This document shows, piece by piece, positions 3,224-10,332 of a stretch of DNA of 64,000 bases. The notes below the pieces were generated by a model. That model was not told the origin of the DNA, did no database searches, and saw only the letters and a list, made by a program, of their open reading frames with translations. The stretch spans positions 1-64,000 of the forward strand of contig NZ_JBGUAW010000009.1 in NCBI RefSeq assembly GCF_041821045.1, in the 5' to 3' direction. Made by a program: the position numbers and the translations under genes. This stretch comes from Thiohalorhabdus sp. Cl-TMA (lineage in GTDB: Bacteria; Pseudomonadota; Gammaproteobacteria; Thiohalorhabdales; Thiohalorhabdaceae). Positions within the stretch are counted from its first letter, which is position 1; each line of letters starts with the position of its first letter.

Positions 3224-3238
3224 TGTAGAAAAAATTTA
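3224..3238 (+). promoter_or_regulatory. AT-rich motif shared by the two PEP-CTERM upstream regions (copy 1)
   Basis: TGTAGAAAAAATTTA lies about 180 bp upstream of the sigma-54-like promoter of the gene at 3482. It matches 14 of 15 bases with the copy at 10207-10221 upstream of the other PEP-CTERM gene, and resembles a related site at 3337-3350. The position suits an activator-binding upstream sequence for a sigma-54 enhancer-binding protein. The binding role is inferred. Confidence 0.45.
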
Positions 3239-3336
3239 CGCCCCGGGACCGTCCGGAGGCGCCCCAAATCGAGCCGCCGCCGTGGCGTGAAGCCTCTTAA
3301 CCGGGCGGACCGTGCTGGCGGCGGCGCCGGGAACTG

Positions 3337-3350
3337 TGTAGCAAAATTTA
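3337..3350 (+). promoter_or_regulatory. Second, variant copy of the shared AT-rich motif
   Basis: TGTAGCAAAATTTA, extending to an imperfect palindrome with the following ACA. It lies 65 bp upstream of the -24 element at 3416. It aligns with the copies at 3224 and 10207 with one substitution and one missing base. Proposed as an enhancer site; not proven. Confidence 0.4.
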
Positions 3351-3415
3351 ACAGCGGGCTCCGGCAGAACTGTTCGCCCGTTTTACAAGCCCGCAGGGCT
3401 CCGGGTGTCCATACA

Positions 3416-3430
3416 TGGCACACCCCTTGC
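3416..3430 (+). promoter_or_regulatory. Sigma-54 (RpoN) promoter of the PEP-CTERM gene
   Basis: TGGCAC-N5-TTGC, with the invariant GG and GC separated by exactly ten bases, closely matches the -24/-12 consensus. It sits 51 bp before the ATG at 3482 on the same strand. Sigma-54 transcription requires an enhancer-binding activator; candidate sites lie upstream at 3224 and 3337. Confidence 0.75.
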
Positions 3431-3481: not shown

Positions 3482-4285
3482 ATGCAACCGCCTGTGCGTG
3501 CTTTGCTCGGGGCTGCCGGTATGGCCGCCGGATTGGCGGTGTCCGCTTCCGCTGGCGCCGTCACGACCGAGACCTATAACGCGGACACTGATGCGGCGGC
3601 CACGGATTTCGCCGTGGAGGGATACAGCGCCCTGCCCTTCGTGGCCGAGGGACGGATCGGTGGCCCCGGAACCTTCGAGATGGACGTGGGCAGCGATACT
3701 TCCGGGGACTTCTCCACCGGCGAGCATGATTGGCCCATGGGGGATCCGGAGCCTTTCAGTCTCGCCTTCGACGGCACCACCGCCACCTGGTCCATCGGGG
3801 AAGGTGATAACGTCATCACTTCCATCATCGGTGCGGATAGCGTGTCCTATGACAGCTTCGGGGACCTGGAAGGCTTCAACAGCCTGCTCATCCGGGCCGC
3901 CACGCCGGGCTCGGGAACCGAGGTGGCCCTGACGGATATGGCCCTGTACGGGGCGGACGACATCAATGGCCCGCTGGATGCGAGCTCGATCAACGGCAAT
4001 GGTCTGCCGGACTTCATCAACAACTACGACAGCCACGCCGCCGATCCGGATCGGCTCGTGAAGTGGATGGGCATCTCCAACGATCTGGACCTGGCCGACG
4101 GCTTCTATCTGACCGGGGAGGTGGCCATGGATTGGCCCACCGGCAACAAGCCCTCCCAGTCCAATCTGGCCTTCCAGATCAAGGGAGCCAACCACACCAA
4201 CGAGGTGCCGGTCCCCGGCACGAGCGCGCTCCTGGCCGGAGGCCTGCTGGGCTTCTGGGGCTTCAGCCGTCGCCGGAAGGCGTAA
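3482..4285 (+). CDS. PEP-CTERM sorting-domain surface protein
   Basis: 267 residues from the ATG at 3482, chosen because GGAGG lies 6 bases upstream and the resulting N terminus is a clear signal peptide (MQPPVRALLGAAGMAAGLAV, then SASAGA). The mature part is acidic (Asp/Glu/Gly-rich), as for an exported beta-rich protein, without a recognisable enzyme motif. The C terminus has the tripartite exosortase signal: VPVPGTSALL, a hydrophobic helix (AGGLLGFWGF) and a basic SRRRKA end. Such proteins are processed by exosortase EpsH/XrtA systems and go to the surface or exopolysaccharide; no exosortase is in this window. A sigma-54 promoter precedes it and a terminator follows at 4343. Confidence 0.85.
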   Translation: MQPPVRALLGAAGMAAGLAVSASAGAVTTETYNADTDAAATDFAVEGYSALPFVAEGRIGGPGTFEMDVGSDTSGDFSTGEHDWPMGDPEPFSLAFDGTTATWSIGEGDNVITSIIGADSVSYDSFGDLEGFNSLLIRAATPGSGTEVALTDMALYGADDINGPLDASSINGNGLPDFINNYDSHAADPDRLVKWMGISNDLDLADGFYLTGEVAMDWPTGNKPSQSNLAFQIKGANHTNEVPVPGTSALLAGGLLGFWGFSRRRKA

Positions 4286-9232: not shown

Positions 9233-10036
9233 TCAGGACTTTTTGAAGCGCCCGCCGCTGACGCCGGCCCCGAGCATGCCCATGGCCAGCAGCGCCAGGG
9301 TGCCGGGAGCCGGGATCGGCTCGCCATTGCCGTTGTCGCCATTGCCGTTGTCGCCGTTGCCGTTGTCGCCGTTGCCGTTATCGACGGCATCCGGCCGGGC
9401 GACATAATAGAGCGTGTTCTGGGAATCCCGATTGGCGAACCCGGTGTTCCAGAGCAATGTGGTATCCCCGGTGTACTCGTAGAAATCGTCCCCGTCGGTA
9501 TCGCTCAGATTGGCGCAGGTATCCGGGCCGTCGCCGTCCTTGAGGCAGAGGTCTCCCCATACCGGCGCGCGGTTGGAAGTGAATGAATAAACCGCCTGGG
9601 CCTGGTCGAACTTCACGCCCAGGTTCTCGAAATCCTCGGGCTGCTCTCCCGGATCCTGCCCCAGCATGTCGATGTACTCGGTGGCGGCGTTGGCCTCGGT
9701 GACGCAGTCGGCGTCGCTGTAGCAGTTGTCGGTTACATCGAGGGTGAAGTGGCTGATCTTGTCGAGCGCCGCTTCCGTTCCGGACCAGGTGTATTCGTAC
9801 TCCCAGCTGCTGTTGACCTGCGTGATGTCCCAGCTCAGGGTCATCCGCTCGTCCGCCGAATCCCCGCTCCAGCGATTGGATCCCTCCAGGCCGCCGATGT
9901 CGAAGTTATCCCGGACCCCGGTCAGGGGAGCGGATTCTCCATAGGCGGCAGCGTTGGCGTCGCCCGCGAGCAGAAACAGGCTTCCGAGGCCCACCAGTGG
10001 AAGCGCGGCTTTACCGAGCGTCGACAGGTTTTGCAT
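9233..10036 (-). CDS. PEP-CTERM-type surface protein with DNGNG repeat linker
   Basis: 267 residues from the ATG at 10036, preceded by GGAG 9 bases upstream. Signal peptide MQNLSTLGKAALPLVGLGSL ending at DANAAA. The mature part is very acidic, with four Cys (in DNCYSDADC and LCLKDGDGPDTC) probably forming disulfides. Near the C terminus lie four tandem DNGNG units, then the sorting signal IPAPGTLALLAMGMLGAG and a basic end (GRFKKS). The AP in place of EP in the motif is a known kind of variation. Probably exported, cleaved by an exosortase and attached to the surface or extracellular matrix. A sigma-54-like promoter lies 78 bp upstream. Confidence 0.82.
   Translation of the reverse strand: MQNLSTLGKAALPLVGLGSLFLLAGDANAAAYGESAPLTGVRDNFDIGGLEGSNRWSGDSADERMTLSWDITQVNSSWEYEYTWSGTEAALDKISHFTLDVTDNCYSDADCVTEANAATEYIDMLGQDPGEQPEDFENLGVKFDQAQAVYSFTSNRAPVWGDLCLKDGDGPDTCANLSDTDGDDFYEYTGDTTLLWNTGFANRDSQNTLYYVARPDAVDNGNGDNGNGDNGNGDNGNGEPIPAPGTLALLAMGMLGAGVSGGRFKKS
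9321..9380. repeat. Four tandem 15-bp repeats in the coding sequence
   Basis: Units TCGCCATTGCCGTTG, repeated with one or two substitutions, four times without spacer; on the coding (minus) strand each encodes DNGNG. They form the linker before the sorting helix. Repeat number could vary by slippage. Confidence 0.9.
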
Positions 10037-10113: not shown

Positions 10114-10129
10114 GCAAGCGGCATGCCTA
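10114..10129 (-). promoter_or_regulatory. Sigma-54-like promoter of the second PEP-CTERM gene
   Basis: On the minus strand TAGGCAT-GCCGC-TTGC: GG and GC are ten bases apart as required, and the -12 element TTGC is perfect followed by T. The -24 element deviates at two outer positions from TGGCAC. It lies 77 bp before the ATG at 10036. Confidence 0.6.
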
Positions 10130-10206
10130 AATGTAAATATCTGAATTTGTGTTATTTTTCCTTTACCTGAAAAACAATCGACACCGGCTGTTAAGCCGTT
10201 CGACGG

Positions 10207-10221: not shown

Positions 10222-10332
10222 TTTTCTTTCCGTAATTTTTCCAGTGCCGTGAGCGGGCGGAGGAATATCGGAGCGGCGAGCCCCTCGGAATGGCGGGGCT
10301 GTAAAAAATATTGAAAGCGTGGCGTCGAGCGC

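Follow-up and report, generated by a model that had tools for sequence, protein, structure and literature searches.

Predicted sigma-54 promoters with phased upstream motifs place two PEP-CTERM genes of Thiohalorhabdus sp. Cl-TMA in a probable PrsK/PrsR regulon

Two PEP-CTERM genes in the window, by which we mean the whole 64,000-nucleotide stretch analyzed here (C9:1-64000 of a 3.74 Mb source genome, G000, in 45 contigs), are preceded by sites that we read, with a probability of roughly 90%, as sigma-54 promoters of a genome-wide exosortase/PEP-CTERM regulon under the control of PrsK/PrsR. Comparison of related promoters further makes it likely that a phase-locked short-loop enhancer operates across the Gammaproteobacteria, in which the PrsR dyad would stand only at ~52, 63, 74 or 85 bp from the promoter, often with an IHF site in between. 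That site would occur in two opposite orientations ~13 bp apart with one bend centre ~19-20 bp above the -24 element, and the module would also control genes of the DUF3135/DUF5658 type. The promoter elements and genes of the window, with position and strand, are as follows.

3224-3240, plus strand: distal copy of motif 1, TGTAGAAAAAATTTACG, 175 bp upstream of the sigma-54 site
3337-3353, plus strand: proximal motif 1 (predicted PrsR site), TGTAGCAAAATTTAACA, 62 bp upstream of the sigma-54 site
3416-3430, plus strand: sigma-54 -24/-12 site of the form TGGCAC-N5-TTGC, TGGCACACCCCTTGC, 51 bp upstream of the gene 1 ATG (3482)
3482-4285, plus strand: PEP-CTERM gene 1, 267 aa, with a choice-of-anchor W domain and a C-terminal VPVPGT...RRRKA
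9233-10036, minus strand: PEP-CTERM gene 2, 267 aa, with C-terminal IPAPGTLALLAMGMLGAGVSGGRFKKS
10114-10128, minus strand: sigma-54-like site of the form AGGCAT-N5-TTGC, AGGCATGCCGCTTGC, 77 bp upstream of the gene 2 ATG (10036)
10189-10205, minus strand: weak candidate for a proximal motif 1, CGTCGAACGGCTTAACA, 60 bp upstream of the sigma-54 site
10300-10316, minus strand: distal copy of motif 1, TTTCAATATTTTTTACA, 171 bp upstream of the sigma-54 site

A first, sequence-only reading had proposed a sigma-54 promoter before gene 1, and the promoter-type site is confirmed as an exact TGGCAC-N5-TTGC at the expected distance from the ATG; a pattern scan of the 64-kb window found TGGCACACCCCTTGC to be the sole match with zero mismatches. 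An AGGAGG-like ribosome site accompanies the ATG at 3482, and the product exceeds the family cut-offs of both TIGR02595 (20.1 bits as a protein and 24.5 bits in a genome search; cut-off 16) and NF041928 (112 bits; cut-off 45). The proximal motif 1 of gene 1, which terminates in TTAACA, one base from TTTACA, is the best match at 40-100 bp to a matrix trained on other families and its score was reached by 0 of 500 shuffles, and the distal copy scores 16.8 against a shuffled 95% level of 7.8 (shuffles here and below, for proximal and distal motif 1 and for IHF mismatch counts, retain base composition only). An extra TTTACA, 28 bp upstream of the sigma-54 site, is out of register. In a second genome of the same genus, G001, the ortholog of gene 1 (58% identity) carries TGGCATAGGCCTTGC 50 bp upstream of its start.

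For gene 2, the distance of 77 bp given by the sequence-only reading stands, as does the GG-N10-GC spacing, which is retained at both window sites at distances of 51 and 77 bp to the starts; the site spans 10114-10128, however, and does not extend to 10129. In isolation AGGCATGCCGCTTGC is unremarkable, because it carries two mismatches to TGGCAC-N5-TTGC and matches with up to two mismatches are not above the shuffled expectation in the window (43 observed vs 62 expected). Assignment of gene 2 to the family is marginal at 16.3 bits against the TIGR02595 cut-off of 16 in the genome search, and as a protein it is absent from the TIGR02595 and PF07589 match lists of the profile search; its nearest full-length model is NF033947 (27 bits, under the cut-off of 60). 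The two genes had been described as unrelated in sequence, which holds overall but not near the C-terminus, where a weak match extends over 79 residues with 29% identity. The proximal motif 1 candidate is the best match at 40-100 bp, yet its score is equalled or exceeded in 67 of 500 shuffles; the distal copy (24.4 against a shuffled 95% level of 10.3) is the strongest candidate for a PrsR site at this gene. The G001 ortholog of gene 2 (57% identity) has an exact TGGCACGGGCCTTGC 72 bp upstream of its start.

A genome scan that the sequence-only reading had proposed, together with its suggestion of a common regulon, is borne out by sites at PEP-CTERM genes across the genome. TIGR02595 matches over the cut-off number 11, ten of them intact; the remaining one (L010/L175; C3:118540-118602), broken by frame changes and without an upstream sigma-54 site, was kept out of the set of ten. 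In all ten intact genes the best-scoring sense-strand site lies 40-111 bp upstream. A score of at least 12.5, under author-set weights, is reached on the sense strand upstream of 10/10 PEP-CTERM genes vs 2/70 background genes, and a score of at least 13.3 by 8/10 vs 0/70 (Mann-Whitney p 2e-7), the background being the other genes of the window and of 40 kb of contig C5, called with a crude script and scored in the same way. When the opposite strand of these 300-bp upstream regions is scored, a single gene of the ten, L004, attains 12.5 (its score is 13.3), and none of the ten does so in the first 300 bp inside the gene.

Position, not abundance, is the signal, because the pattern is well placed at PEP-CTERM genes and is not enriched genome-wide: with up to one mismatch it occurs 182 times, vs 199 for a reversed control. 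Exact TGGCAC-N5-TTGC occurs 15 times in the 3.74 Mb, four of these preceding PEP-CTERM genes, one of which is under the family cut-off. A gene under the TIGR02595 cut-off, L016, has an exact site whose distance is 19 or 64 bp according to which start is taken, and was retained separately as 'below cut-off' because of that site and a signal-peptide-like start; seven other own-genome matches under the cut-off (L012-L015 and L017-L019) are by look unrelated membrane proteins or short frames and were dropped. In G001, six of seven PEP-CTERM genes have a sigma-54 site at 43-164 bp, the seventh (L179) being without a convincing one. Elsewhere in the class, outside the genus, an upstream score of 12.5 is attained by 11 of the 22 PEP-CTERM genes whose start could be scored; two more genes had no start.

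Exact sites in the source genome also precede, by inspection, a type IV pilin-like gene (L020) and a gene for a UreG-like GTPase (L021); type IV pilin and UreG-like GTPase genes are usual sigma-54 targets. Exact sites likewise precede L031, L032 and L033, which by inspection alone resemble genes for a selenium-binding-type, an OsmC-like and a DsrE-like protein.

In the promoters of the source genome itself, motif 1 seemed to stand at a few preferred distances from the sigma-54 site, the first sign of phasing, and spacing was therefore searched class-wide with the pattern TTTACA-N47-77-TGGCAY-N5-TTGC in 369 genomes of Gammaproteobacteria. The search returned 148 matches in 97 genomes vs 14 for a reversed control, which underrates chance because 36 of the 148 sit in long open frames. 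A PEP-CTERM gene lies downstream of 54 matches by a simple C-terminus rule, and 58 are in other non-coding DNA, where some may also belong to PEP-CTERM genes that were too long for the stretch examined. Looser sites were missed in the class sample because exact TTTACA and TGGCAY-N5-TTGC were required; the source genome yields only three matches to the exact TTTACA, which is too strict there because several promoters of the genus end motif 1 in TTAACA, TTTACG or TTTACC.

The 54 PEP-CTERM sites, from 30 families, fall at 49-53 bp (7 sites), 60-65 bp (27) and 71-76 bp (20), with none at 54-59 and none at 66-70 bp. Across periods their R peaks at 0.81, a value not attained in any of 2000 null sets, and it is 0.78 for a period of 11 bp; the 58 other non-coding matches are likewise phased (R 0.62), and phasing is absent from the 36 matches in open frames (R 0.18, equalled or exceeded by 1669 of 2000 null sets), which are not pure chance because the locus L324, described below, belongs to them. 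With one site per family (n=30), R at 11 bp has a mean of 0.80 and a lowest value of 0.72, against a null maximum of 0.55 in 20,000 draws, and when the window's genus is removed all 50 sites, in 29 families, are in register (R at 11 bp 0.80). Of the 97 genomes that gave a match, 77 were also scanned for spacers outside this span. Spacers of 78-108 bp yielded 32 matches, 10 of which cluster at 84-86 bp (p 6e-4), corresponding to the next turn; spacers of 16-46 bp yielded 18 matches without phasing. The best fit on the training set gives a period of 11.65, and 11 fits the outside data better; we claim no precise period.

The same registers recur in the genus of the window. A motif-1 matrix was built from 50 training sites, none from this genus, and its best match at 40-100 bp was taken in each of 18 promoters, 12 from G000 and 6 from G001, with L179 omitted. 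The best match falls in register in 18/18 (p 2e-9), a test in which about one third of all positions are allowed by chance and in which the 12 G000 promoters are not independent of the phasing idea, because the idea arose from G000. L324 is not independent either, because it was found by the pattern search itself; without it the count is 17/17 (p 6e-9), and G001 alone gives 6/6 (p 1e-3). Besides gene 2, the set holds four promoters whose best match is equalled or exceeded by 7 to 25 of 500 shuffles, and L009 has a TTTACA at 32 bp, outside the registers. A distal copy at 150-200 bp exceeds the shuffled 95% level in 10 of the 18. Three of the genus promoters (L002, L324 and L176) have in common a TTCACAC element 39 bp before the -24 element and 25 bp after motif 1.

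Within the matched spacers a second element recurs, TAACTTATTGAT. The IHF consensus is WATCAANNNNTTR, and TAACTTATTGAT, which we take to be an IHF-like site, matches it when read on the minus strand, at a distance of 30-34 bp upstream of the T of TGG; other promoters carry the consensus on the plus strand, 17-21 bp upstream of that T. With up to one mismatch, one or other of the two places is occupied in 45 of 112 non-coding sites vs 0 of 36 coding sites, and with up to two mismatches in 75 of 112 vs 3 of 36. The stricter form is present in 23 of the 54 PEP-CTERM sites, in 20 of 30 families, and 0 of 300 permuted consensuses cluster as strongly as the IHF consensus at any place. The flank expected for IHF is A+T-rich in each orientation (n 31, p 6e-4; n 14, p 2e-3), where plus-strand sites were compared with the next segment upstream because the promoter occupies the other side. 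The crystal structure of IHF places the bend in the DNA close to the 5' end of the consensus; if this holds here, both orientations would share one bend centre.

Six of the 18 genus promoters have a match with up to two mismatches in the two places (null mean 1.1, with 0 of 2000 null sets as many), and the source genome encodes the IHF alpha subunit (134.5 bits; cut-off 120). At the window promoters the site is absent or weak: in the two places, gene 1 lacks a match, its best having six mismatches, and gene 2 has a weak one with two. In many relatives, the IHF-like site is placed where a bend would help a short loop.

An unlikely alternative is that these regularities are by-products, the phasing arising from shared ancestry and the IHF-like element from A+T-rich DNA or from another nucleoid protein. 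Promoters are indeed common to related genomes, the spacers are rich in A+T, and the two places of the IHF-like site were identified from the very sites in which it was then counted. Moreover, a PEP-motif protein rises ~3-fold in Geobacter ihf mutants (PMC7962754, Table 2), opposite to IHF-assisted activation, and a simple helper role for IHF does not fit there because the protein rises without IHF. Against a by-product, phasing retains its strength over 30 families with a single site from each, the IHF-like site is confined to non-coding sites at the stricter threshold and is matched by none of the permuted consensuses, and the A+T-rich flank switches with orientation to the side that IHF would need.

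The regulator genes that a PrsK/PrsR regulon would call for are present. The single rpoN gene (C2:101847-103274) scores 475 bits over a cut-off of 277, and prsK (787 bits; cut-off 300), prsR (725 bits; cut-off 502.6) and prsT (756 bits; cut-off 312) stand side by side on contig C5, in an XrtA/exopolysaccharide locus together with exosortase A. The sequence-only reading had suggested that such a regulator may act from elsewhere in the genome, and indeed C5 is another contig than that of the window, so that the PrsK and PrsR genes are encoded outside it. XrtA is the one exosortase gene of the genome, a single frame with an EpsI domain, and its locus set comprises TIGR03013, TIGR03007, TIGR03018, TIGR03015, TIGR03006, TIGR03087, TIGR03088 and TIGR03108, each over its cut-off.

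From these genes and sites a mechanism may be proposed, in which the sensor kinase PrsK would phosphorylate PrsR, the NtrC-type activator encoded beside it in the C5 XrtA locus. We infer that PrsR binds motif 1, an imperfect dyad (TGTCRR-N5-TTTACA) ~53-76 bp upstream of the promoter, and that sigma-54 reads the site downstream; in this genus, PrsR would often also occupy the second motif 1 copy 150-200 bp upstream. Bound PrsR would contact the RNA polymerase-sigma54 complex via a short DNA loop, which would be the cause of the phasing by holding the activator on the polymerase-facing side of the helix.

It is distinctly improbable that the promoters are sigma-54-dependent and activated by one or more other enhancer-binding proteins. 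Counting PrsR itself, 17 open frames of the genome match its activator part, and a pair of Desulfovibrio activators, DVUA0057 among them, is predicted to share one motif (PMC4641369). In the source genome, however, a single PrsR exceeds the family cut-off, and motif 1 resembles the site that was tied to PrsR by phylogenetic profile, the distribution of PrsK, PrsR and PrsT matching that of the site (Haft et al., 2006; PMC1569441). Similarly, DAP-chip of the Desulfovibrio regulator DVUA0057 recovered its five predicted PEP-CTERM targets (PMC3333781). That the sites are chance matches and a housekeeping sigma factor reads the PEP-CTERM genes is hardly credible: degenerate matches are frequent in the window and show no genome-wide excess over the reversed pattern, but sites are enriched upstream of PEP-CTERM genes in the correct position and orientation, similar sites are found in G001, motif 1 falls in phased registers, and no sigma-70-like promoter was seen in the 340-400 bp scanned upstream of either window gene.

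A PrsK/PrsR regulon with a spacing rule may extend beyond intact PEP-CTERM genes. In-register pairs of motif 1 and sigma-54 site lie upstream of DUF3135 proteins (L222, L228 and L253, with spacers of 62-64) and of DUF5658 membrane proteins (L227, L255 and L257, with spacers of 51, 64 and 65), in each case in three genomes of two families; L222, L253, L227 and L255 were assigned by Pfam, and L228 and L257 by likeness. Both kinds of gene are possible PrsR targets other than PEP-CTERM, the link being looser for DUF5658 because the chosen start is 164-298 bp past the site. In the source genome, a strong pair (L324; G000:C15:38686-38770) precedes the frame-broken remnant of a PEP-CTERM gene, one that is missing from the hits of the protein model. 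In another genome a pair (L325; G313:C52) lies some distance before a gene that, by inspection alone, resembles that of the PEP-CTERM-type exopolysaccharide glycosyltransferase; there, the regulon may include the eps locus itself.

By sequence, then, the two window genes would belong to a PrsK/PrsR and sigma-54 regulon of the kind linked to floc formation by the bacteria of activated sludge. The class comparison offers natural evidence that a short-range sigma-54 enhancer must hold its helical face. The spacing rule predicts that an insertion of 5 bp would kill activation, that one of 11 bp would be tolerated, and that IHF would matter where its site is present; it also helps to find members missed by the protein model, such as the decayed gene here and perhaps the DUF proteins.

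Several described systems bear comparison with this one. For pepA of Aquincola tertiaricarbonis, a 2023 study mapped the transcription start and reported a TGGCAC -24 element, like that of gene 1, together with RpoN1 dependence and an enhancer-like upstream sequence; it concerns one gene in one species, in which transcription control by PrsK/PrsR is given as only probable (PMC9850573). In Zoogloea, PrsK/PrsR control is stated with reference to earlier work (PMC9012009). The LuxO-activated qrr enhancers of Vibrio have natural loop lengths that are likewise stepped by ~11 bp, with a different activator and in one genus (61 genes, loops of ~80-120 bp), whereas the PEP-CTERM set here spans 30 families (PMC4740811). 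IHF-assisted sigma-54 promoters have an IHF site between activator site and promoter (PMC7962754), the place of the IHF-like site in many of the relatives studied here; at the two window promoters such a site is absent or weak.

The closest likeness is to the system of Haft et al. (2006; PMC1569441), which describes a site type before 99 of 167 proteobacterial PEP-CTERM genes, in large upstream intergenic regions: motif 2, a sigma-54 site ~71 bp upstream of the start, and motif 1, of 17 nt with a TTTACA end and sometimes repeated, separated from it by a spacer of 62.8 bp (SD 10.6). The window promoters are alike in kind, and the feature thus belongs to a kind of promoter known, from that description, since 2006. 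Section 7 of that paper leaves phasing unmentioned, and our literature searches found no published description of helical phasing at PEP-CTERM promoters nor, in the text they returned, of an IHF-like site there. To the account of Haft et al. (PMC1569441), as far as its promoter description goes, we add the registers of the spacer, the IHF-like element in relatives and the distal motif 1 in 10 of 18 genus promoters.
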